From: Candidatus Promineifilum breve
GTDB taxonomy: Bacteria > Chloroflexota > Anaerolineae > Promineifilales > Promineifilaceae
Assembly (NCBI RefSeq): GCF_900066015.1
Contig: NZ_LN890656.1
Location: 558,001 to 622,000, forward strand
Reading direction: 5' to 3'
Length of the DNA stretch: 64,000 bases
The position numbers were made by a program, and so were the translations under genes. Shown here piece after piece: positions 2,872-19,377 of the stretch. Position 1 is the stretch's first letter, and every line of letters starts with the position of its first letter. The notes beneath the pieces were generated by a model. That model worked only from the letters and a program-made list of their open reading frames with translations, ran no database searches and was not told where the DNA came from.

Positions 2872-5124
2872 ATGCTCCGCTTCTCCGACTTCTCCCACCT
2901 GCCGGAGATCGACGACCTCGTGCGCCGGCTGGTGGCCGAGACGGCCGGGCTGGTCGTCGTGGCCGGGCTGGATAGCCGGCCGGGCGGCGACTCCCCCGGC
3001 GACACCACCGACCCCTTCCACTTCCTACCCAGCGGCCGATCCACCATCTTCCGCGTGCTGGTCAGCGAGGCCCTCGACGCCCAACCCCGCGCCCGCTGCC
3101 TCGTCGTGGCCGCCGACCGGGGGGCCATCAACGTCGCCCGCCGCTTCCGCAACCGCATCGAACTGATCGAGGTCAAGCCGTCGTTCGGTTACGCCGAGGC
3201 CATCGCCGCCGCCCTCGCCAAGCGGCCGGACCTGCTCGTCGTCGACCGGCTGGCGGCCGACAACCTGCCGCCGCTGCTGGCCGCCGCCCGCGCCGGCGTG
3301 CGCGTCCTGTCGCAACTGGACACGCTCTACTGCGCCCAGGCCGTGGCCCGCCACCTGGGCGATCTGGGCGCGGCGGCCGATGACCTGAGCGGGTTGCATT
3401 GGGTGCTCGGCCTCCAGCGCCTGCCCACCCTCTGCCCCACCTGCAAGCGCCCGGCCGACGTGACCGCCGATCAACTGGCCCAACTCGAGGCGCTCGGCCG
3501 CCGCTACCCATCGCTGAGCGCCCACCAGGCCCCGGCCGAGGGCGGCGTCTTCTACGCCCCGGTCGGTTGCGCCGAATGCCACTTCACCGGCCGCCGGGGG
3601 GACGTGGCCGCCTTCGACTTCTTCGACGCCACCGATTCAGCCGCCGACCTCTGGACGCGCCCCAGCGCCATGCCGATGGAAGCCTACGTCTGGCTATTGG
3701 CCCAGCGCGGCCAACTGGCCCTGAGCGACGCGCTGGACTTTGCCGCCCATCAGGTGCGCCGCAGCAACAATCTGCTCCTGCACAGCGAGCGACTGCTGAC
3801 CGAGCGCAGCGCCGCCCTGGAGCGCAAAACCGTCGAACTCGACTCCGCCAACCGCCTGCTGAAGCAGCGCACCCGCGAACTGGTCTCGCTGGAGGGCATC
3901 GGCCAATCGCTCATCACCTGGAGCGACCTGCGCGAACTGGGCGACCGCGTGCTCAAGTCGGCCATGGAACTGAGCAAGGCCGACCGGGGCGTGCTCTACT
4001 ACGTGCGCTCCAGCGACTGGGGGCAAATCCTGGCCGCTCGCGGCTGGGTCGGGGCGCACGAAGGGGTAGGGCTGGCCCGCGGCCTCATCTATGAGCACCT
4101 GTCCGACCGCGAGCCGATGGTCTATCGCGACAACCCGCCGGGGCTGCAACCGCCGGCCGACAGCCCACCGTTGCGCGCCGGGCAGGCCATCCCCCTGGCC
4201 GCCCACGGCATCCCCGCCGGGCTGATGCTCATCCAGTCCACCCGCAAGAACGGGTTCTCGCCAGGCGAGGTGGCTCTGCTGCAAACACTGGCCGGCTATG
4301 CCGCCATCGCCATGCAGCGCGCCGGGCTGATCGAGCAACTACAGGGCAAGATCGAGGCCCTGGAAGCGGCCCAAGTGGAGATCGCCCAGAAGGAGCGGCT
4401 GGAGCGCGAGCTGGAACTGGCCCGGCAGGTGCAGCTGAGCATGATCCCGCGCACCTTCCCCGACGTGGGCGGCGTCACCTTCGCCGCCGCCTATGCCCCG
4501 GCGCGGCAGGTGGGCGGCGACTTCTACGACGTCATCCGCCTCGACGACGAGCGCGTGGCCCTGGTCATCGCCGACGTGGCCGACAAGGGCATGCCCGCCG
4601 CCCTCTACATGGCCCTGGCCCGCAGCCTCATCCTGGCCGAGGCCCGCCGCGCCGCCGCCCCGGCCGAGGTGCTGGGCAACGTCAACCGCCTGCTGCTGGA
4701 AGTGGGCCAGGAAAATATGTTCGTCACGGTCTTCTATGGCGTGCTCGACCGGGGGCGCGGCCATCTCACCTACGCCCGCGCCGGGCACGACCACCCGTTC
4801 CTGCTGCGCGACGGCGGGATCGCCCCGCTGCAAGGGCGCGGCATGGCCCTCGGCCTGTTCGCCGCGCCGCTATTCCACGTCAGCGAAGAGACGATGGCCC
4901 TGCGCCCCGGCGACCGGCTGGTGCTCTACACCGACGGGCTGACCGACGTGGTCGGCCCCGACGGTGAAATGCTCGGCCGCGAACGGCTGATGGCCCGGCT
5001 GCCGGCCTACGCCGGCCACGCCCCGGCCATGATGTGCCGGGCGCTGTTCGACGACCTGGCGGCTTATCGAAGGGATGAGGGGCAGTTTGATGATATGGCG
5101 GTGTTGGTGGTAGAGATGGGATAA
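2872..5124 (+). CDS. Degenerate GspE/PilB-like domain fused to GAF and SpoIIE-type PP2C phosphatase
   Basis: A 750-residue multidomain protein. Residues ~1-260 follow the C-terminal half of type II secretion/type IV pilus ATPases, ending in the tetracysteine zinc site (CPTC near 188-191, CAEC near 233-236, then FTGRRGDVAAFDFF). The ATPase chemistry is gone: the Walker A position reads GLDSRPGGDSPGDTT, Walker B reads LLVVDRLAADN without the catalytic Glu, and the LSTLHT box is LSQLDT. A coiled-coil-like segment (~300-345) leads into a GAF domain (~347-490) and a PP2C phosphatase (~525-750) with GGDFYD, IADVADKG, YTDGLTD and DDMAV, so the phosphatase should be active. Likely role: a signalling phosphatase scaffolded by a pseudo-ATPase, perhaps linked to pili. 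No clear ribosome site precedes the ATG; the upstream DNA is repeats. Confidence 0.85.
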   Translation: MLRFSDFSHLPEIDDLVRRLVAETAGLVVVAGLDSRPGGDSPGDTTDPFHFLPSGRSTIFRVLVSEALDAQPRARCLVVAADRGAINVARRFRNRIELIEVKPSFGYAEAIAAALAKRPDLLVVDRLAADNLPPLLAAARAGVRVLSQLDTLYCAQAVARHLGDLGAAADDLSGLHWVLGLQRLPTLCPTCKRPADVTADQLAQLEALGRRYPSLSAHQAPAEGGVFYAPVGCAECHFTGRRGDVAAFDFFDATDSAADLWTRPSAMPMEAYVWLLAQRGQLALSDALDFAAHQVRRSNNLLLHSERLLTERSAALERKTVELDSANRLLKQRTRELVSLEGIGQSLITWSDLRELGDRVLKSAMELSKADRGVLYYVRSSDWGQILAARGWVGAHEGVGLARGLIYEHLSDREPMVYRDNPPGLQPPADSPPLRAGQAIPLAAHGIPAGLMLIQSTRKNGFSPGEVALLQTLAGYAAIAMQRAGLIEQLQGKIEALEAAQVEIAQKERLERELELARQVQLSMIPRTFPDVGGVTFAAAYAPARQVGGDFYDVIRLDDERVALVIADVADKGMPAALYMALARSLILAEARRAAAPAEVLGNVNRLLLEVGQENMFVTVFYGVLDRGRGHLTYARAGHDHPFLLRDGGIAPLQGRGMALGLFAAPLFHVSEETMALRPGDRLVLYTDGLTDVVGPDGEMLGRERLMARLPAYAGHAPAMMCRALFDDLAAYRRDEGQFDDMAVLVVEMG

Positions 5125-5193: not shown

Positions 5194-5454
5194 ATGGCTA
5201 CAAAGATCATGCCCATCAGCGATTTACGGCGCAATGCCGGCGAAGTGTTAAATGCCGTTCGGGAAGGCGGCGAAGTTGTCTATATCACCCAGCATGGCCG
5301 ACCGGCGGCGGTTCTGGTTGAGTATGAGCGCTACGAGGCGATGCTCGCGCAGTTGGAGGACCTGGCCGATTTGGCGGCTATCGAGGCGGCGGCCGATGAG
5401 CCGTCGCGCGACTACGCGGATTTCCTGGCCGGCCTGGTACAAAGCGAAAACTGA
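5194..5454 (+). CDS. Type II antitoxin, Phd/YefM family
   Basis: An 86-residue protein with the standard Phd/YefM N-terminal DNA-binding fold: MPISDLRRNAGEVLNAVREG, then VYITQHGRPAAVLVEYERYEAML. The acidic, helical C-terminus (LADLAAIEAAADEPSRDY) is the part that usually wraps and neutralises the toxin. It lies 2 bases before the RelE-type toxin gene, the normal antitoxin-first order. Such antitoxins normally repress their own promoter. A copy of the C-terminal segment survives as a remnant at 9047-9139. Confidence 0.9.
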   Translation: MATKIMPISDLRRNAGEVLNAVREGGEVVYITQHGRPAAVLVEYERYEAMLAQLEDLADLAAIEAAADEPSRDYADFLAGLVQSEN

Positions 5455-5456
5455 CG

Positions 5457-5714
5457 ATGTATCGCTTGCAGATCAAGCGCTCGGCCGAAGCGGATTTGCG
5501 CCGCTTGCCCGCGCCGGTATTCGCGCGGATCAATGAGCGTCTGTTAACGTTACGCGATGAGCCGCGACCACCAGGCGTGCGCAAGCTTCAAGGCCAACAG
5601 GAGGGCTGGCGAATTCGCGTCGGCGAGTATCGGGTTATTTACCTGATCGATGATTCCAACCGATTGATTACCATCGTGCGTGTTCGACACCGACGAGACG
5701 TTTATAAAACCTAG
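5457..5714 (+). CDS. Type II toxin, RelE/ParE family
   Basis: An 85-residue basic protein of the RelE/ParE superfamily: IKRSAEADLRRLP near the N-terminus, then the core RPPGVRKLQGQQEGWRIRVGEYRVIYLID and the terminal VRHRRDVYKT. Members are mostly ribosome-dependent mRNA interferases or gyrase poisons; this one has the RelE-like arginine/lysine-rich core. It is transcribed with the antitoxin directly upstream. The stop codon TAG (5712-5714) is the first triplet of a palindromic repeat, so the toxin ends exactly where the repeat begins. Confidence 0.9.
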   Translation: MYRLQIKRSAEADLRRLPAPVFARINERLLTLRDEPRPPGVRKLQGQQEGWRIRVGEYRVIYLIDDSNRLITIVRVRHRRDVYKT

Positions 5715-5746
5715 AAACCGAGTTTCTCGGCAGAAACTCGGTTTCT
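5713..5746. repeat. Palindromic repeat agaaaccgagtttct (family H)
   Basis: Perfect 15-base arms (5713-5727 and 5732-5746) around a 4-base loop. It could act as a terminator-like hairpin for the toxin-antitoxin transcript. Related copies lie at 9145-9175 (decayed), 10376-10411, 32353-32384, 32401-32433 and 47905-47940. Confidence 0.9.
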
Positions 5747-5764
5747 ATCTTAGCTGTTACATCT

Positions 5765-8700
5765 CTACTGCGCCCAGACCACCGGCACCAACGCCCTATA
5801 CCCCACAGGCGGCGGCGGGACGATTGGCCCCGGTGCGCCCCAGTTCGGTAAATAATCATCCGCCGGATGATTGGTCAGCAAGGTCTGGCCGCTGCCATCC
5901 GAGTTCATCACGTAGATCTCAGGGTTGCCGTCACGTAAACTATTGAAGGCGATCCTTGTCCCATCCGGGGCCCAGGTCGGGTAATAGTCGCTCACGCCGT
6001 TGGTGGTCAGGCGGGTCGGATTGCCGCCGTCGGCATCCATCACCATGATCTCGTAGCTGCTGTCGCGCCAACTCTCATAGGCGAGCTTCGTCCCATCGGG
6101 CGACCAGGCTGGAGAGTAATCCCCTTCCGCATAGTTAGTCAGGTTGGTCTGGCCGCTGCCGTTGGCATTCATGACGTAAATCTCATTGTTGCCGTCGCGG
6201 TCGCTATGAAAGGCGATCTTCGCCCCAACGGGCGACCAGGCCGGCCGATTGTCGGCGGCCGGGTTGTTGGTCAGGCGCGTCTGGGCGCTGCCAGCGGCGT
6301 TCATGACGTAGATCTCGGGGTTGCCGTCGCGCTCGCTGGTGAAAGCGATCTTCGACCCGTCGGGCGACCAGGTCGGATAGCTGTCGTACGCGGCATTGTT
6401 GGTCAGACGAGTCGGATTGCCGCCGTCGCCGTCCATCACGTAGATCTCCCAGTTGCCGTCGCGGTTACTCCCGAAGGCGATCTTCGTCCCGTCCGGCGAC
6501 CAGGCCGGCTGGTCATCCTCCGCGGCGTGGTTGGTCAGATTGGTCTGATTGCCGCCGTTGGCATTCATCACGTAGATCTCAGAGCTGCCGTCGCGGGTGG
6601 TGGTAAAGAGGATCGCCGACCCATCGAAGCCCCAGGCCGGCTGGCTGTCGGCCGCGCCGTTGCCGGTCAGATTGGTTTGGCCGCTGCCGTCGGCGCTCAT
6701 GACGTAGACCTCGTTGTTGCCGTCGCGGTTGCTGGTGAAGGCCAGGCGCGAGCCGTCGGACGACCACGCCGGTTCGGTGTCCATCGCCGTATTCTGGGTC
6801 ACGTCCGTCTGGTTGCCGCCGTCGGCGTCCATCACGAAGATGTCCACGTCCAGATCGCGGAAAGCCTCGAAGGCGATCTGCGTCCCGTCCGGCGACCAGG
6901 TGGGGTTGTAATCGCCCGACGCCGGGTCGTTGGTCAGATTGGTCTGGCCGCTGCCGTCGGCGTTCATGGCGTAAATCTCAAAGCCGCCGTCACGATTGCT
7001 CTGGAAAGCGATTTTGCTCCCGTCCGGCGACCAGGCCGGGTTGTGATCGCCGGCGGCGTTGTTGGTCAGGTTGGTCGGGTTGCCGCCGTCGGCATCCATG
7101 ATAAAGATCTCGTCGTTACCGGCGCGATTGCTGGTGAAGATGATCTGCGTTCCGTCCGGCGACCAGGCCGGCTGGTAGTCGAACGCGGCGTTGTTGGTGA
7201 GGCGCGTCTGGTTGCCGCCGTCGGCGTCCATCACGTAGATCTCGCCGTTGCCGTCGCGGTCGCTGGTGAAGGCGATCCGCGTCCGGTTGGGCGACCAGGC
7301 CGGCTCGGAATCGGCCGCCGGGTTGTTGGTGACGCGCTTCTGGTCGCTGCCGTCGGCGTTCATGGTGTAGATTTCCTGGTTGCCGTGGCGCTCGCTCATG
7401 AAGGCGATGCGGCCGGTGGGAGTCTGGGGCAACGGCGGCGTGTAGGGCGGGGCCTCGAAGGAGCCGGCGTCGCAGCCCGCGCCTTGCGGCCGCGGTTCGC
7501 CGCGCTGATCCAGCCCGTTGACCGGCGCGCCGGCACAGTCAGCGCCGGGAGCAATGTCCTGGGCCGGGCTGCCGGGGATGAGGGCATGGGTCTGGGTTGG
7601 CCCGCCGTTGTTGGCCAGCGTCGTATCCAGAATGGCCGCCAGGTCATAGTTGCCCGCGTCGCTGGTAGCGATCACATCCGATACGCCGGGGCTGAAGTTG
7701 GCAAACGCCTGGGCCGAGGTCAAGCCACTGTGGCCGAACACGTTGGCGGCGCCGGCGTTGACTGTGCCGCCTTCAATGCGGAGTTCACCGCCGCTATTGG
7801 TCGCGCTGTTCCCGGCGATCAGGCTGCGGGTCAACGTCACCATGTTGCCCGAGTAGCTATAGATACCGCCGCCGTTGTCGGCCGTGTTGCCGGAGAGGGT
7901 GCTATTGATGACGGTTGTCATGGCCGCGTCGTGACCGGTATCGATGCCGCCGCCATTCGCGGACGAGTTGCCGGAGAGGGTGCTGTTGACTACGGTCAAC
8001 GTGCCATTGCTATTGGCTATACCCCCGCCATAACTCGCGCCCACGTTGCCGGTAAAGGTGCTGTTGGCGATGGTCATCGTATCATAAAAGAACAGGATGC
8101 CCCCGCCACCCGTCGCCGAGTTACCGGAGAAGACGCTGTCGGTGATTGTCACCAAACCGGACCAGGAGGTAAGACCGGCCCCATAGGGGCCTTCGTTGTC
8201 AGAGAAAGTGCTGCCGTTGATAGTCGCCGTACCGTCGACGTTGTAGATCCCGCCGGCGCGGCTGTAGGCCCAGTTGCCGGTGATAGTGCTGTTGGTGACG
8301 GTCAGCGTGCCGCCATCGTTGAAGATGCCGCCGGCATCATAGCCGGCCGCGTTTCCGGAGATGGTGCTGTTGTTGACGGCCAGTATCCCGCCGTCGTTGA
8401 GGATGCCGCCGCCGGAATCCATGAAGGCGTTCTTGCCGTGCCGCACGGTCAGGTTATCGAGCGTCAGATCGCCCGCCGCGCTGATCTCCAGGACGCGGTA
8501 ATCGGCCGGCGTACAGCCGCCCGGCAACGTGACCGGGTTGCAGGTCGAGGCCTGGATGACGAAATTATCCTGCGGCAGGGCGAAGATGGTCATCTCGCTG
8601 GTGACGGCCGGCAGCTGGCTGCCCAGGGTGATCGGGCTGGTAGCGAAGGTCAGGTAAATATCGTCGGCCCCACTGCCCGCGATGCATTCGCCGGTAGTCG

Positions 8701-8905
8701 CCCCGGAAGCGGTGTCGGTGTTGGCGGCGATGATCGCCTCGCGCAGGGAGCATTGGCCGTCGTCGGCGACCGTATCGGCGTCGGTGCTGACGAACAGACC
8801 GGCCGCCCGCGCCGGTCGCGCGGTCAGGCTGAACAGGAAGATCGACAGAACGGCCAACAGGCCAAGAACGGGCATGGCTCGCTTCCACGTATTAACTTGA
8901 TCCAC
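5765..8905 (-). CDS. Secreted beta-helix plus TolB-like beta-propeller protein
   Basis: A 1046-residue exported protein. A signal peptide (basic start, hydrophobic core, cleavage near ARA-AG at ~35) is followed by a CSLREAIIAAN motif that opens right-handed parallel beta-helix proteins with polymorphic outer-membrane-like repeats. The helix region (~55-490) repeats short blocks such as NSTISGN and GGGI. After a low-complexity PPYTPPLPQTP linker come 12 PD40 repeats of about 44 residues (IAFxSxRDGNxEIYVMNADG...LTNN...PAWSPDG), enough for two six-bladed propellers. The start is a GTG with AAGGAGAT six bases upstream. No membrane anchor or sorting signal is visible. A surface adhesin or polysaccharide-binding role is plausible but unproven. 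Confidence 0.88.
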   Translation of the reverse strand: MDQVNTWKRAMPVLGLLAVLSIFLFSLTARPARAAGLFVSTDADTVADDGQCSLREAIIAANTDTASGATTGECIAGSGADDIYLTFATSPITLGSQLPAVTSEMTIFALPQDNFVIQASTCNPVTLPGGCTPADYRVLEISAAGDLTLDNLTVRHGKNAFMDSGGGILNDGGILAVNNSTISGNAAGYDAGGIFNDGGTLTVTNSTITGNWAYSRAGGIYNVDGTATINGSTFSDNEGPYGAGLTSWSGLVTITDSVFSGNSATGGGGILFFYDTMTIANSTFTGNVGASYGGGIANSNGTLTVVNSTLSGNSSANGGGIDTGHDAAMTTVINSTLSGNTADNGGGIYSYSGNMVTLTRSLIAGNSATNSGGELRIEGGTVNAGAANVFGHSGLTSAQAFANFSPGVSDVIATSDAGNYDLAAILDTTLANNGGPTQTHALIPGSPAQDIAPGADCAGAPVNGLDQRGEPRPQGAGCDAGSFEAPPYTPPLPQTPTGRIAFMSERHGNQEIYTMNADGSDQKRVTNNPAADSEPAWSPNRTRIAFTSDRDGNGEIYVMDADGGNQTRLTNNAAFDYQPAWSPDGTQIIFTSNRAGNDEIFIMDADGGNPTNLTNNAAGDHNPAWSPDGSKIAFQSNRDGGFEIYAMNADGSGQTNLTNDPASGDYNPTWSPDGTQIAFEAFRDLDVDIFVMDADGGNQTDVTQNTAMDTEPAWSSDGSRLAFTSNRDGNNEVYVMSADGSGQTNLTGNGAADSQPAWGFDGSAILFTTTRDGSSEIYVMNANGGNQTNLTNHAAEDDQPAWSPDGTKIAFGSNRDGNWEIYVMDGDGGNPTRLTNNAAYDSYPTWSPDGSKIAFTSERDGNPEIYVMNAAGSAQTRLTNNPAADNRPAWSPVGAKIAFHSDRDGNNEIYVMNANGSGQTNLTNYAEGDYSPAWSPDGTKLAYESWRDSSYEIMVMDADGGNPTRLTTNGVSDYYPTWAPDGTRIAFNSLRDGNPEIYVMNSDGSGQTLLTNHPADDYLPNWGAPGPIVPPPPVGYRALVPVVWAQ

Positions 8906-9046
8906 GACATCTCCTTATGGCTATGGGGTGTTTTTTGAGCGACAATACAAACAAGAGAGGCAGTCACTAACGACTGGTTGACGCATTGCTGTTTGTGGGA
9001 GGGAATAATAACAATGAAAAGATGGCTGTCAACAAAGGAATCGACA

Positions 9047-9139
9047 CTGGAAGACCTGGCCGATTTGGCGGCCATCGAAGCCACGGCCGATGAGCCGGTG
9101 CGCGATTATGACGATTTCCTGGCCGAGTTGCTTCTAAGC
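9047..9139 (+). pseudogene. Remnant of a Phd/YefM antitoxin (C-terminal segment)
   Basis: The frame encodes LEDLADLAAIEATADEPVRD and then DDFLAELLLS, nearly identical to the C-terminal third of the antitoxin at 5194-5454, with high DNA identity (for example gacctggccgatttggcgg in both). The N-terminal DNA-binding part is missing, and no toxin follows. Within a few bases the decayed family H palindrome begins, the element that follows the toxin in the intact locus. This suggests an old copy of the whole module that lost its toxin and antitoxin head. Confidence 0.75.
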
Positions 9140-9144
9140 AAATC

Positions 9145-9175
9145 TAGAAACCGGGTTTTTCGCTACGCAACCCGA
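9145..9175. repeat. Decayed family H palindrome
   Basis: tagaaaccgggttttt followed by gcaacccg. The right arm is truncated. It follows the antitoxin remnant and ends just before the stop of the EEP protein gene. Confidence 0.6.
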
Positions 9176-10207
9176 CTAGCGCGGCTCTTTCGCTTTTAGC
9201 ACCACCAGAACCGCGCAATGGTCAGACTGACCCTCGACGCAGTTCACCGTAGCCGCAGTCGTCGCCAGATGGGGCGAGTGAAAGACGTAATCGATACGCA
9301 CCAACGGAAATGGGAGGCGCACCCCGGCTAGACGAAAATTATTGGGAAACGTCCGGCCCAATCCGAACCCCGCTTGGCGAAAGCTGTCTTGCAGAGAAGC
9401 GGTGATTGCCGCGTAGGCGTGTGACTGGTCACTCATGTTGAAGTCGCCCAGGACAACCACCGGCTCAGCGACCCCCGCTACTTGTTGCAACATATAGGCG
9501 ACTTCGCTTTCGAGATCAGTCTCGATAATGCCGCGCGGCAGAGGGCGCGTCTCCGACCAGACGATCCCCGGTGGATAGAAGTGAATGGGAAAGATGTGCC
9601 AATCGGTACCTTTCTGATCCACAACAACGTGCAGGAAGGGGCGACCGTCGGGCGGGTAAAGCCACTGGTAACCGAGAATAGGTAACTTGCTGAAGAACCC
9701 AGTCGATGCAATAGCCGTGTCTGATATTTGATAGGGGTAGGCGGCCAGCTCAGCCGCCAACACAGCGGCCGACTGGTCTGTCATTTCCTGCACGGCAACG
9801 ATGTCGGCCTGGGCGGCGGCAATCGTTTGGGCCAATTGGTCGGGCGAGGTGAGGCTCAATCCCAAATTAAAAGTCATGGCCGAGACGGTTGGCCCCCTAC
9901 TTTTCTCAGGCAAGATGGCCGAGACCGGCGGCAGCACCGGATGAGTCACCAGAAACAGGGCAACGAGCAGGAGCAAAATCGCTATCGCCGCGCGCGTGCG
10001 CAAGAGTATCAGGCAACCCACTAGCGGAAGCGCCGCTAGATAAAGGTAGAGGTTGAACGTGCTCGCCAGAGCGACAAACGGCGAGACAGGCCGCAGAAAG
10101 TGGTTGGCAATGAGCAAGGCCGCCATTCCAATAAGATAGAGCAGCCCGGCCGCGTGGATAGCTCCCCGGAATCGGTGATTGTTTGCAAGCTTGATCATAC
10201 CGGCCAT
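9176..10207 (-). CDS. Membrane-anchored endonuclease/exonuclease/phosphatase family protein
   Basis: A 343-residue protein. Three hydrophobic segments near residues 15-36, 45-65 and 70-92 form an N-terminal membrane anchor. The rest is an EEP-fold hydrolase with the family signature residues: TFNLG (metal and Asn), AVQEM (catalytic Glu), LGDFN (Asp/Asn), RIDYVF, and the terminal SDHCAV with the general-base His. This architecture is common in bacterial outward-facing or periplasmic hydrolases of unknown substrate; DNases, phospholipases and phosphodiesterases share the fold. It stands alone between unrelated genes. Fold is certain; substrate is not. Confidence 0.87.
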   Translation of the reverse strand: MAGMIKLANNHRFRGAIHAAGLLYLIGMAALLIANHFLRPVSPFVALASTFNLYLYLAALPLVGCLILLRTRAAIAILLLLVALFLVTHPVLPPVSAILPEKSRGPTVSAMTFNLGLSLTSPDQLAQTIAAAQADIVAVQEMTDQSAAVLAAELAAYPYQISDTAIASTGFFSKLPILGYQWLYPPDGRPFLHVVVDQKGTDWHIFPIHFYPPGIVWSETRPLPRGIIETDLESEVAYMLQQVAGVAEPVVVLGDFNMSDQSHAYAAITASLQDSFRQAGFGLGRTFPNNFRLAGVRLPFPLVRIDYVFHSPHLATTAATVNCVEGQSDHCAVLVVLKAKEPR

Positions 10208-10319
10208 ACCTGTGTTCCGATCATACTGCCGAACACGTCCGTTGCCGGTCTACAATGCGCCGCTAACCCTGCTATTGGAGTACGGTAACCAAGCCTATCC
10301 CGCCCAACGCGGCATATAG

Positions 10320-10338
10320 GGCGGGATGGCATCCCGCC
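10320..10338. repeat. Palindrome ggcgggatg-g-catcccgcc
   Basis: Perfect 9-base arms around one base, followed by a partial direct copy (ggcgggataccatcac) at ~10350-10365. Short intergenic element of unknown role. Confidence 0.6.
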
Positions 10339-10375
10339 TCTTTACTCCTGGCGGGATACCATCACGTCCTAAAAC

Positions 10376-10411
10376 TAGAAACCGAGTTTTCAAGAAAAAA
10401 CTCGGTTTCTA
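10376..10411. repeat. Palindromic repeat, family H
   Basis: Arms tagaaaccgagtttt and aaaactcggtttcta with a 6-base loop. It ends 3 bases before the stop codon of the DinB gene. Confidence 0.9.
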
Positions 10412-10414
10412 CCA

Positions 10415-10960
10415 CTATTCAATAGAAATAGGCCTAACAAACTCCTGCGAAAATGCCCAGCCGCTCACATCGGGCGGCTCGAGGCCCAACTGGGTCAGGA
10501 TGACCATGATTTGGGCGCGGTGCTCCGTGGCGTGGTTGATGGCCTGGGTGAGGATCAGGCCGACCGGCGTATGCCAGCGCAAGCCGTCCCCTTCCAGGAT
10601 CACCACCTCGCCCGCCGCCGCGCCCGCGGCCACGTCCATCAGCCCCTGGCCGTTTTGTTGCGCCATCGCCCGCAAGCGGGCCACGTCCACCAGGACAGGG
10701 CCACCGGCCGACCACAACCGGGATTCTGGTTCCCGGCCGGTCAGGTCGGACAGGTATTGCTCCTCCGACCAAACGATGTGGTTGAGGGTCTTATGGATCG
10801 TGTTATACGTGCCGGGAATCGTCGCCGCCAGTTGCTCCTCGTCGAGCGCGGCGCAGGCATCGAGCAGGCGCAGGTTGGCCCACAGGTTGTGGCGGAACAG
10901 CATGACGAGCGGCGGGTCAGCCGCGGCCTGGTTTAATGGCAGGTGGGCTTGCGTGTCCAA
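10415..10960 (-). CDS. DinB family protein
   Basis: A 181-residue four-helix-bundle protein of the DinB/YfiT-like superfamily. Landmarks are FRHNLWANLRLLDAC at the N-terminus, the first metal-type His in KTLNHIVWSEEQYL, and the second in INHATEHRAQIMVILTQLG near the C-terminus. The usual His triad (H-x...H...H) is present. DinB proteins bind divalent metals and act as thiol-dependent S-transferases or damage-inducible proteins; none of these roles is shown here. The start is a TTG at 10960 with AAGGAG eight bases upstream; an ATG start would remove the first helix. Confidence 0.87.
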   Translation of the reverse strand: MDTQAHLPLNQAAADPPLVMLFRHNLWANLRLLDACAALDEEQLAATIPGTYNTIHKTLNHIVWSEEQYLSDLTGREPESRLWSAGGPVLVDVARLRAMAQQNGQGLMDVAAGAAAGEVVILEGDGLRWHTPVGLILTQAINHATEHRAQIMVILTQLGLEPPDVSGWAFSQEFVRPISIE

Positions 10961-12598: not shown

Positions 12599-13366
12599 TT
12601 ATCCCCGATGATATTCCATTGGCGCAGCCAGGATCTCCAACCGCACCTCGCCCACACCTAACCGCTCAACGCGATACGCATGACCGCGACCGGCCACCTC
12701 AAGGCGCGACCCCTGCGCCACCAGCAACGTATCTTCATCGATCGCCCAGCCCTCATCCGTCAGCCCGCCGGCCACGGCCTGGATGAGGCGCGTCAATGTG
12801 CCCATTTGCCCGGCGTGAACGTCCACGGCGAACGGCACCAGCCCCGCCCCCGGCCGCACGGTCAGCGCGTCCAGCCCCTCGCCCGCGCCGGCGAAAATCA
12901 TCGGCCGGGCCGCGCCATCGCCCGTCTGCCAGCCGCCCACAATCGCCCGTGTGGCGGCGATGGCCGCGCCGGCCGACGTACCGCCATAAGCGACGCGCTG
13001 CCCGCGCACGTACTCGACCCAACTCAGGTCGGCGCACAGGGCGGCGTGATAGACCGGCGTCGCCCCGCCACACACGAAGAGACCCGCCGGCGCATAACCG
13101 GCCACCTGCGCGCCGGTCAGCGGGCGCTCCGGCCTCACCCATATAGGCTGTAACCGTTCGGCCGGAACCGCCAGGGCCAAGAAAAGTTCGCTGTAATAAT
13201 CGGTCGTTTCGCGCGCTTCTTCCGGCTCGGCCGCGGCGGCCACAATCAATAGCGGGCCATCGCCCCCGCCCAGAAAGGCCTGAGCCATGCGGCCAAAGGT
13301 GCTTTCGCGGGCTGTGGGCGCGTCGCCGCCGCCATGCAACAAAACCAATGGATACTCATTCGTCAT
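12599..13366 (-). CDS. Cyanophycinase-like serine peptidase (family S51)
   Basis: A 255-residue protein of the class I glutamine-amidotransferase-like fold. The nucleophile elbow GGTSAGA sits near residue 130, and FVCGGATPVYH, LLHGGGD and VDVHAGQMG mark the family. The Ser nucleophile in GTSAGA, rather than Cys, fits peptidase S51: cyanophycinase or dipeptidase E. Cyanophycinase cleaves cyanophycin to beta-Asp-Arg dipeptides. No signal peptide is seen, so it should act in the cytoplasm. Its start overlaps the end of the PP2C gene by 11 bases, making it the last gene of the five-gene operon. Specificity for cyanophycin is inferred from family membership and operon partners. Confidence 0.82.
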   Translation of the reverse strand: MTNEYPLVLLHGGGDAPTARESTFGRMAQAFLGGGDGPLLIVAAAAEPEEARETTDYYSELFLALAVPAERLQPIWVRPERPLTGAQVAGYAPAGLFVCGGATPVYHAALCADLSWVEYVRGQRVAYGGTSAGAAIAATRAIVGGWQTGDGAARPMIFAGAGEGLDALTVRPGAGLVPFAVDVHAGQMGTLTRLIQAVAGGLTDEGWAIDEDTLLVAQGSRLEVAGRGHAYRVERLGVGEVRLEILAAPMEYHRG

Positions 13367-15215
13367 CAGGTGTTCCGGTCTCCAACCGCCGCAACGCCAC
13401 CATCGTCATATCATCAAACGGCTCGGCCCCCGTGGTGTGGACGCGCAAGGCTTCTTCAATCGCCGCCAGCGCTTCCTCGGCCGTGGCGGCATGGCGCATA
13501 ATGTCCTCCACCCGCTCCAGCCCCAGCTCCTCGGCCGCCGGGTTGCGGGCCTCGGTCACGCCGTCGGTATAGGCCAACAGCAGTTCGCCGGGGGCCAGGG
13601 TCGCCTGCCCCAACTGGTAGGGGACGTTGGTCAGCAAGCCGATGGCCGGGCCGGTGGGCGACAGCTCGACCCGCGCCGCCCGTTCGCCGTTCTCGACCGG
13701 GCCGAAGATCTGCGGCGGGTTGTGCCCGGCGTTGACGTACCACAGGTGGCCGTCGTGGGGATCGATCACCGCCGCGAACAATGTGGCGAAGGTGTAGGTG
13801 TCGCCGTGGTTGCCGATGAGATAGGCGTTGGTGAGGCGCACGGCATTGACCAGCGCGTCCCGGTCGATGAACGGGAAGGGCGCGGTGCGGCCGAAGCCGG
13901 GCGCGGCCGGGGCCGGCTCGGCCTCGTAATAGTTCTGCTGGAACAGGGCGCGGAACAGGCTGCGAATGATCGCCATGAACAGCGCCGCCGTGACTCCCTT
14001 GCCCACCACGTCGGCGATGATCAACACCACGTAGCCGTGGGGCAGGCGGAAGGCGTCGTAGAAATCGCCGGCCACTTCCAGCGCCGGCTGGAAGCGGGCC
14101 ACCAGCTCCCAGCCGTCGGGGTTGGGCAGGCGGGCCGGCAGAAAGCTCAGTTGAATCTCGCGGCCGATCTCCAGTTCCCGCTTGTAGCGCATCAGTTGCG
14201 CCTGGGCCTCGCTCAGCAGCCGATTGTTCAGCACGACCGCCGCCTGCGAGGCCAACGACTCGGCCACCTGCTGGTGGTAGGCGTCGAAGGGCACGACCTG
14301 CTCGCTGCCCGGTTGGCGCCGGTTCGCCAGCAGCAGCGCCCCCACCACCTGCCCGTTGCGCAGCGGCACGGCCAGGATCGATTCGGGTTCATAGGCCAGG
14401 GTGCTTTCCAGTTGCGCCAGGACGCCCGACTTGAGGCGACCGATGCCGTCGCGGCTTAAATTGAGCGATTCCCCCTTGAGAGCCACGTAGACCGGCAGGC
14501 TGCCCACATTCGGCTCGCCCGCCGCGTCGGTCAGCGGCATGGCCGGGATGAGTTCCGGCGCGCCCGACCCGGCCTGATAGGTGAAATCGAGCGATTGCAC
14601 CCGCAGATAGGTGTGGTGGAGCAGGCCGTCGTCCCGCGCCAGGAACAGCGCCCCGGTGTCGGCGTTGGCGATGGCCTGGGCCTCGGCCACGATGCGGGCG
14701 ATGAGCCGGTCGAACGCCGCCTCGGCCGACAGCGCCGCCCCCAAGGGCAGGATGACCAGCCGCAGATCATCGGCGATCTTCTCGATCTCGTTGAACGCCT
14801 CCAGGGCCATGCCCGCCTGCTCCTGCAACAGCTTGCGCTGCAGGACGTTGGTCAGCCGGGCGCGCAACAGGACTTCCTCTTCGGGGTGGATGATGTAATC
14901 GGCCGCCCCCGCCTGCACACAGCGCACCAGCCGCTCCATCGGCACGCCGGGCCAGGCGGTGACGACGACCGGGATGGCGTTGAGGGTCGTGTTATGGGCG
15001 TGGTCGCGCAGGAAGGCGTACTCGTCCCGCTCGGCGGCGTCGAGATTGAGCAGCACCAGGTCGAACCCGCCCCGGGCCAGCGCGGCCAATGCCCCGGCCG
15101 GCTCGCCGGGCAGGTAGGTGGCCGCCCAATCCCAACCGCCGAACGGCCGCGTCACCCGCTCGCGGCGCTGCGCATCGTCGTCGATTACCAGGAAATGACT
15201 GTTCGCCAGTGGCAT
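13356..15215 (-). CDS. Receiver-GAF-PP2C (SpoIIE-type) phosphatase with degenerate receiver
   Basis: A 619-residue protein with three modules. The receiver (~1-130) keeps the acidic pair (LVIDDDAQ), but the phosphoacceptor position is Asn (DLVLLNLD) and the conserved Lys is His (ADYIIHPE), so phosphorylation is unlikely. A GAF domain follows (~150-340), ending in EPESILAVPLRNGQVVGALLLANR. The PP2C domain (~385-610) keeps AGDFYD, IADVVGKG, NAGHNPP, YTDGVTEARN and FDDMTMVAL, so it should dephosphorylate a protein partner, probably an anti-sigma antagonist-like protein. It lies 16 bases downstream of the RsbW-like kinase gene, and the cyanophycinase-like gene overlaps its 3' end. Confidence 0.87.
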   Translation of the reverse strand: MPLANSHFLVIDDDAQRRERVTRPFGGWDWAATYLPGEPAGALAALARGGFDLVLLNLDAAERDEYAFLRDHAHNTTLNAIPVVVTAWPGVPMERLVRCVQAGAADYIIHPEEEVLLRARLTNVLQRKLLQEQAGMALEAFNEIEKIADDLRLVILPLGAALSAEAAFDRLIARIVAEAQAIANADTGALFLARDDGLLHHTYLRVQSLDFTYQAGSGAPELIPAMPLTDAAGEPNVGSLPVYVALKGESLNLSRDGIGRLKSGVLAQLESTLAYEPESILAVPLRNGQVVGALLLANRRQPGSEQVVPFDAYHQQVAESLASQAAVVLNNRLLSEAQAQLMRYKRELEIGREIQLSFLPARLPNPDGWELVARFQPALEVAGDFYDAFRLPHGYVVLIIADVVGKGVTAALFMAIIRSLFRALFQQNYYEAEPAPAAPGFGRTAPFPFIDRDALVNAVRLTNAYLIGNHGDTYTFATLFAAVIDPHDGHLWYVNAGHNPPQIFGPVENGERAARVELSPTGPAIGLLTNVPYQLGQATLAPGELLLAYTDGVTEARNPAAEELGLERVEDIMRHAATAEEALAAIEEALRVHTTGAEPFDDMTMVALRRLETGTPDDE

Positions 15216-15231: not shown

Positions 15232-15672
15232 CTACTCGTCGTCCGGCATGGCCGGGGCCGATTCCATCATAAACGTGCTGCGATTGCGCCCGCCCTCGCT
15301 GTCATAAGCAAAGCCATCGACGCCCCACAGGGCCAGAAAGATGCCCAAGCCCCCGTCGCGCCGCTCCTCCAGGGGCCGGTCGAGGTCGGCCGGGCGCGGC
15401 GCCTGGCGCGGGTCGAACGGCCGGCCGGTGTCCTCCAGACAGAGGATCAATTGCCGCTCGGTGGTTTCGGCCCAGATGGTCAGGTCGCCGCTCAAGTGGT
15501 AATCCTCGTAGCCATGCTGGACGACGTTGGTGGCGATCTCATCGACGGCCAGCGCCAGCCGGTAGGTGGCGGCGTCGTCCAGCCCGAAGGCGGCCGCCGC
15601 CCAGACCACGTAATCGAGCACCTGGCTCAGGTTGTCGGCGTGGCCGCCCACGGTCAATGGTTCCAGATTCAT
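15232..15672 (-). CDS. RsbW-type serine/threonine kinase (anti-sigma regulatory factor)
   Basis: A 146-residue single-domain HATPase_c protein. N-box ALAVDEIATNVVQHG is near residues 43-57, the G1 motif LEDTGRPFDP near 80-88, and the terminal GGLGIF near 107. This size and layout are those of RsbW/SpoIIAB kinases, which phosphorylate STAS proteins and sequester sigma factors. The partner STAS protein is not in the window. The ATG overlaps the GlgX stop (ATGA), and the PP2C gene begins 16 bases after its own end. This is the usual genetic pairing of kinase and phosphatase in partner-switching systems. Confidence 0.85.
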   Translation of the reverse strand: MNLEPLTVGGHADNLSQVLDYVVWAAAAFGLDDAATYRLALAVDEIATNVVQHGYEDYHLSGDLTIWAETTERQLILCLEDTGRPFDPRQAPRPADLDRPLEERRDGGLGIFLALWGVDGFAYDSEGGRNRSTFMMESAPAMPDDE

Positions 15673-19241: not shown

Positions 19242-19377
19242 TAGTGGATAGTGGTCAGTGGGTAGTGGGCAGATGCAGGGGAGCAGGGGGGCAGGGGAGC
19301 AGGGGAGAAACCCGCCACTCGCTACCCGCCACTCGCCCCTCTCTTCATTCGTAATTCGTAATTCGTAATTCGTAATT
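19242..19377. repeat. Composite of four short-period repeats (families B, E, A, F)
   Basis: In order: gtggata/gtggtca/gtgggta units (7 bases, ~19243-19272), aggggagc units (8 bases, ~19276-19304), the complement of gtggcga units (~19309-19335), and ttcgtaa units (7 bases, ~19345-19377). Four repeat types are stacked in 136 bases between the kinase start and the acetyltransferase stop. No gene. Confidence 0.85.

Follow-up and report, generated by a model that had tools for sequence, protein, structure and literature searches.

A predicted dead GspE/PilB-type ATPase domain joined to GAF and PP2C phosphatase domains in Candidatus Promineifilum breve

The window analyzed here is a stretch of 64,000 nucleotides from Candidatus Promineifilum breve (contig NZ_LN890656.1, positions 558,001 to 622,000). 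Close to its start lies a gene whose product was described in a first-pass annotation as a dead GspE/PilB-type ATPase module fused to a GAF domain and an intact PP2C domain, a description that was confirmed by Pfam, AlphaFold2 (AF2) and motif alignment. The same fusion was found in other genomes, with at least 22 homologous genes in all, and the full-length homologues share the pseudo-T2SSE/GAF/PP2C architecture. The features considered below, in coordinates of the window, are as follows.

2872 to 5124, plus strand: pseudo-T2SSE/GAF/PP2C fusion gene, 750 amino acids plus stop, uninterrupted frame
2872 to 3738, plus strand: GspE/PilB-type ATPase C-terminal domain (CTD), complete, catalytically dead as judged from its motifs, residues 1-289 (Pfam, hhalign, AF2 with Foldseek and VIA)
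2968 to 3030, plus strand: insertion that splits the P-loop, residues 33-53 (21 residues, against 3 in PilB; disorder predicted at 37-48)
3031 to 3039, plus strand: Walker A relic S54-G55-R56 (GSGK to PSGR)
3232 to 3249, plus strand: Walker B relic LLVVDR, residues 121-126 (atypical Gly to Asp, catalytic Glu to Arg)
3307 to 3324, plus strand: HIS-box relic LSQLDT, residues 146-151 (His to Asp)
3433 to 3579, plus strand: tetracysteine zinc-site candidate C188, C191, C233, C236
3739 to 3915, plus strand: 59-residue signaling helix, residues 290-348, heptad periodic (AF2; 3.5-residue periodicity)
3925 to 4317, plus strand: GAF domain, residues 352-482 (Pfam PF13185/PF01590)
4261 to 4443, plus strand: 61-residue helix, residues 464-524, joint between GAF and phosphatase (AF2)
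4459 to 5121, plus strand: SpoIIE/PP2C (PPM) phosphatase domain, catalytic Asp residues intact
13356 to 15215, minus strand: second PP2C protein, with a degenerate REC domain plus GAF and SpoIIE, syntenic in the genus
15232 to 15672, minus strand: RsbW-like HATPase_c_2 serine-kinase candidate adjoining the second PP2C gene, syntenic in the genus

The family is sparse, yet its members come from several classes of the phylum. Fusion matches were detected in 8 of 59 genomes of close relatives, and the fusion is kept in 4 of the 8 genomes of the host genus. In the class sample, the N-terminal profile matched 20 of 396 genomes (~5%), a count that includes one ordinary PilT-like protein (G104) and a few contig-edge fragments. 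Two further carriers (G415 and G694) belong to other classes of the phylum; the remaining phylum matches, whose alignments covered the Walker B-zinc region, came from ordinary proteins of the PilB/GspE type. GAF and SpoIIE domains were present in all 19 full-length members scanned, and one output type was seen. The family tree contained few firmly supported deep branches, and family f1 was not clearly monophyletic; transfer and loss are therefore indistinguishable.

Among the proteins seen in the searches, none with the T2SSE-GAF-PP2C architecture had an intact P-loop. Candidates for such an intact-ATPase fusion, L064 (PilT-like, GSGR) and L090/L091 (GspE, GMGKT), proved to be ordinary full-length motors. 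The L064 protein (1012-2160) is PilT-like and carries GPTGSGRSTT, in which the Walker A Lys is Arg; it is otherwise an intact motor without zinc cysteines. One profile scan of contigs from other phyla returned ordinary PP2C, PilB or multicysteine matches only, and a plasmid search for the fusion returned one ordinary GspE.

The relationship of the N-terminal module to secretion ATPases was evident at the level of sequence. PF00437 (T2SSE) matched the fusion protein with 38.9 bits against a Pfam cut-off of 24.9, over the Walker B-to-zinc part only, and 15 of 18 family members matched it singly. A PDB sequence search with the fusion protein led to PilB/GspE chains, and the family profile matched PDB GspE with an E value of 3e-15. 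Alignment by hhalign of the family (18 homologues) with 11 genuine PilB/GspE sequences gave a probability of 99.1 and an E value of 3.9e-19. This profile-profile alignment began where the RecA-like domain does, crossed the P-loop and reached the zinc site, and the merged alignment extended to the natural PilB C terminus.

The predicted structure agreed with the T2SSE fold. An AF2 model of residues 1-347, built with 18 homologues as input, reached a pLDDT of 86.4 and a pTM of 0.82, and the top Foldseek ranks were occupied by PilB/GspE-type ATPases only (E about 1e-19). PilB/EpsE structures matched the model with Z scores of about 25-26: comparison by VIA gave Z 26.6 over 256 aligned residues with Thermus thermophilus PilF (5oiu), the PilB homologue, and Z 25.5 over 247 residues with Vibrio cholerae EpsE. 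The aligned span covered model residue 1 to about 295, and residue 1 aligned with residue 294 of Geobacter sulfurreducens PilB, which lies in the N2D-CTD linker. Because the span and the chain start fall there, the modeled module is exactly the GspE/PilB CTD (RecA-like plus zinc). Like GspE/PilB proteins, including PilF and EpsE, it shows the whole CTD fold, which begins at the N2D-CTD linker, ends at the C terminus and includes the tetracysteine CM subdomain. In contrast to GspE/PilB, the fusion protein contains neither N1D nor N2D by VIA and the merged alignment, and its CTD is joined to GAF-PP2C. In PilB, R271 and R286 come from the N2D, which also makes the main contact between subunits (PMC5424180). 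The earlier assignment of a T2SSE-type module to the N terminus was thereby upheld in homology and fold and revised in extent: only the CTD is present, and it ends not at residue ~260 but at about 289, at the natural PilB C terminus. The tetracysteine metal-binding motif of the GspE/PilB type, a putative zinc site, was found in 21 of 21 homologues; the loop between its cysteine pairs is strongly shortened in one lineage, where all four cysteines are still invariant.

The active site was compared in 21 fusion homologues aligned against 10 PilB/GspE proteins. The Walker A Lys was replaced by Arg in 20 homologues and by His in 1, so that none of them carries GxxGxGK[ST], and 13-21 residues separated the first Gly from the Ser where PilB has 3 (10-18 extra). 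Walker A had been annotated as lost; this holds for its Lys, but G32 and S54-G55 persist in the window protein as remnants of the split P-loop. Loss of the catalytic Glu after Walker B and the change of LSTLHT to LSQLDT had been read correctly. The catalytic Glu occurred in 0 of 21 homologues, being replaced by Arg, Gln, Lys, Thr, Asn or His (Arg126 in the window protein), and the HIS-box His likewise in 0 of 21, with Asp, Asn or Glu instead. All three of these residues are present in GspE/PilB and missing from the fusion. The ASP-box Glu was kept in 14 of 21 homologues and lost in the window protein. Conserved throughout were the first P-loop Gly, the second Gly, the QRL Arg and the four zinc cysteines. 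In 20 of 21 homologues, an acidic residue stood at the canonical Walker B position. On the evidence of these motifs, the N-terminal domain is catalytically dead in all 21 homologues aligned. Since one consistent set of inactivating changes is shared by all of them, the family ancestor was probably dead already.

Near-invariant, family-specific residues were found at the former active site: D34, R56, Q148, T151 and an acid or amide at position 150. This pattern looks like rebuilding and not random decay. It is quite possible, if still tentative as a prediction, that a new ligand-binding pocket has been built out of the dead ATP site. The residues concerned (D34, S54-G55-R56, the acid at 125, Q148, the acid or amide at 150, and T151) sit where the P-loop, Walker B and HIS box used to be.

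Two other roles for the domain were weighed against the rebuilt pocket. In one, the domain would bind nucleotide without hydrolysis and serve as an ATP/ADP energy-state sensor, as might be suggested by the retained P-loop residues G32, S54 and G55, the ASP-box Glu of two-thirds of the homologues and the nearly constant Walker B acid. This is unlikely given the universal loss of the Walker A Lys, the 13-21 residues that replace 3 in the P-loop, the lost ASP-box Glu of the window protein and the absent N2D arginine fingers. In the other, the tetracysteine site and not the dead pocket would do the work, as a zinc-stabilized dimerization module or a redox module. The invariance of the four cysteines despite the strong loop shrinkage in one lineage agrees with such a role, as does the finding that zinc coordination is essential in EpsE (PMC5061722). 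Yet D34, R56, Q148 and the acid at 150 near the dead pocket are also near-invariant, and because a pure zinc scaffold would not need them, we consider this role improbable as well.

Sensing of, or docking to, pilus ATPases had been put forward as a function of the fusion. In this reading the pseudo-ATPase would dock to or insert in the machinery of pili or type II secretion (PilC/GspF, genuine PilB hexamers) and couple its state to dephosphorylation. The PilB/GspE fold speaks for it, and carriers outside the host genus had a T2SSE ATPase in 16 of 16 genomes and the T2SSF platform protein in 15 of 15 tested. The former count is uninformative, however, because T2SSE ATPases occur anyway in about 86% of the relatives sampled outside the genus. 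Within the host genus, a genuine T2SSE ATPase was found in 0 of 8 genomes and T2SSF in 0 of 8, while the fusion gene is kept in half of them. In the host genome itself (99.96% complete, 3 contigs), nothing besides the fusion matched T2SSE above the Pfam cut-off. Genuine T2SSE matches of other relatives reach about 200 bits, too high a score for the absence from the genus to be a sensitivity miss. The missing N2D also argues against docking. The PilB pore loop 1 residues D398 and E400 mark the region expected to meet PilC, and the equivalent positions were variable and not conserved in the fusion family. Proximity to pilus genes was not observed either, as there were none among the neighbors identified at 20 fusion loci. 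The docking proposal was accordingly abandoned as a leading explanation and is now considered very unlikely, though in carriers outside the genus docking may still occur.

The host genus (G000-G007) appears to be without any T2SSE/T2SSF machine, unlike most relatives, which suggests, from gene content, that pili and type II secretion were lost across the genus. A T2SSE domain match is no evidence for pili or type II secretion; the sole match above the cut-off in the host genome is the fusion.

Selection on the domain was estimated as dN/dS by the Nei-Gojobori method in three close homologue pairs. Values for the pseudo-ATPase domain were 0.21, 0.20 and 0.17, and those for the PP2C domain were 0.08, 0.09 and 0.12. 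More distant pairs within the host genus gave higher, less reliable values for the pseudo-ATPase (0.42-0.44). By these substitution ratios, the pseudo-ATPase domain is under purifying selection, constrained yet evolving faster than PP2C, as expected for an input domain. A pseudogene or decay of the fusion was ruled out by dN/dS, and the idea that the domain is a decaying gene-fusion remnant with no function of its own, which the lost catalytic motifs might suggest, has next to no standing and is already refuted by the substitution ratios of about 0.2 in close pairs, the invariant family-specific residues and the identical architecture across several classes.

Downstream of the CTD, the full-length AF2 model (pLDDT 85; pTM 0.45, with domain placement uncertain) placed in order the helix 290-348, the GAF domain, the helix 464-524 and PP2C. 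Heptad periodicity was significant in the first helix (p=0.003), and none of significance was found in the second. The GAF domain matched PF13185 (47.2 bits) and PF01590 (38.6 bits), both above Pfam cut-offs. PF07228 (SpoIIE/PP2C) matched residues 558-748 with 166 bits against a cut-off of 25 and was above the cut-off in 19 of 19 scanned full-length members. The metal-coordinating phosphatase residues D550, D568, D688, D740 and D741 were invariant in 19 homologues. Control of a phosphoprotein by the phosphatase, also proposed at first pass, is most likely correct, as predicted from the intact PP2C domain.

PP2C/RsbU-type phosphatases have exchangeable inputs, among them PAS, GAF, REC, HAMP and RsbU-N, and GAF input is known in the PPM phosphatase RsbZ. 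As in phosphatases of the RsbU/RsbP/RsbZ/SpoIIE type, the fusion has a C-terminal PF07228 domain with all catalytic Asp residues and a putatively sensory N terminus connected via a predicted long helix; it differs from them in its T2SSE-type pseudo-ATPase input. RsbT switches on RsbU by imposing order on its linkers, which form a short coiled coil that makes the phosphatase domains dimerize, and a comparable linker mechanism has been proposed for PPM phosphatases with PAS, GAF, REC/RR and HAMP inputs (PMC12143880, Baral et al.). We propose by analogy that the helix-GAF-helix-PP2C layout has the right parts for an RsbU-like coiled-coil-linker mechanism. The fusion is, on balance, predicted to be a cytoplasmic RsbU/RsbP/SpoIIE-like partner-switching phosphatase with the pseudo-ATPase as its input domain. 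It would form a dimer. The pseudo-ATPase would respond to a partner protein, to a ligand in the rebuilt pocket where ATP once bound, or through its zinc site, and the GAF domain would take in a signal as well. Both domains would change the linker geometry, and the helices would relay the signal to the switch helices of PP2C. Once active, the phosphatase would dephosphorylate a STAS-type anti-sigma antagonist that carries phosphate on Ser/Thr, counteract an RsbW-like HATPase kinase and so alter gene expression. The protein would neither hydrolyze ATP nor need a pilus.

Candidates for such partners are encoded in the host genome, which contains 9 STAS matches (5 of them in short proteins), RsbW-like HATPases, about 8 SpoIIE phosphatases and two clear STAS-HATPase-SpoIIE clusters. 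Given this set, it is plausible that the phosphatase has partner-switching partners in the host. The gene order in the genus is histidine kinase, glycogen debranching enzyme, RsbW-like HATPase, REC-GAF-PP2C, alpha/beta hydrolase, fusion (convergent) and ATP-grasp. The synteny with the RsbW-like HATPase and the second PP2C gene may be chance colocation, and the RsbW-like gene may belong to the other phosphatase, since it has its own PP2C beside it. In an all-against-all comparison of open reading frames at 20 loci, no common neighbor was found except within taxa. An operon partner outside the genus was rejected, as only taxon-specific synteny with housekeeping genes was seen (transketolase-like E1, thiolase, PEP-utilizing/PTS enzyme, URO-D). 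Because no neighbor is conserved outside the genus, the partner-switching link is suggested by domain type and genus-level synteny.

RsbP is controlled by RsbQ, an alpha/beta hydrolase. An RsbQ-like role for the alpha/beta hydrolase of the genus was considered and dropped; its start, LLLLFVSLGCG, resembles that of a secreted lipoprotein, so a cytoplasmic location is not expected.

At loci L068 and L070, which represent two other species of the genus, the alpha/beta hydrolase and fusion genes adjoin directly; in the window, genes at 5194-10960 intervene. These are a toxin-antitoxin-like pair, a repeat-rich exported TolB-like protein, an endonuclease/exonuclease/phosphatase family protein and a DinB-like protein. 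The pair, directly downstream of the fusion (5194-5714), resembles Phd/RelB antitoxin and RelE toxin genes by eye and is not at this place in L068/L070. Coding tandem repeats of 132 bp (11.6 copies, 5871-7408) lie in the open reading frame at 5765-8905 on the minus strand, whose product is beta-propeller-like with DG(N/D)xEIYVM repeats. On the other side, the ATP-grasp protein (1020-2603; Pfam ATP-grasp_IQCH match) is conserved beside the fusion in the genus. Short tandem repeats upstream of the fusion, at 2589-2664 and 2776-2833, consist of GCGAGTG (10.9 copies), CTCCCCTG (7 copies) and related units, and similar units recur near 19.3 kb (19275-19377).

FimX and the PATAN response regulators resemble the fusion in being signaling proteins linked to pilus ATPases. 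However, they bind or regulate intact PilB, whereas the fusion holds the ATPase fold itself, in a genus without PilB. No description of a T2SSE-type pseudo-ATPase, GAF and PP2C architecture was found in the open-access literature searched. If the proposed reading is true, a pilus or secretion motor domain turned pseudoenzyme would be an input of different origin for PP2C/RsbU-type phosphatases. If the pocket has been rebuilt, the ATPase domain of a secretion motor would act as a one-component sensory input still used after its host lost pili. The fusion appears to be a machine part turned signal sensor and kept under selection in a pilus-less genus, and with the pilus motor missing from that genus, the fusion makes a natural test case for what a pseudo-ATPase does after the loss of its parent machine.
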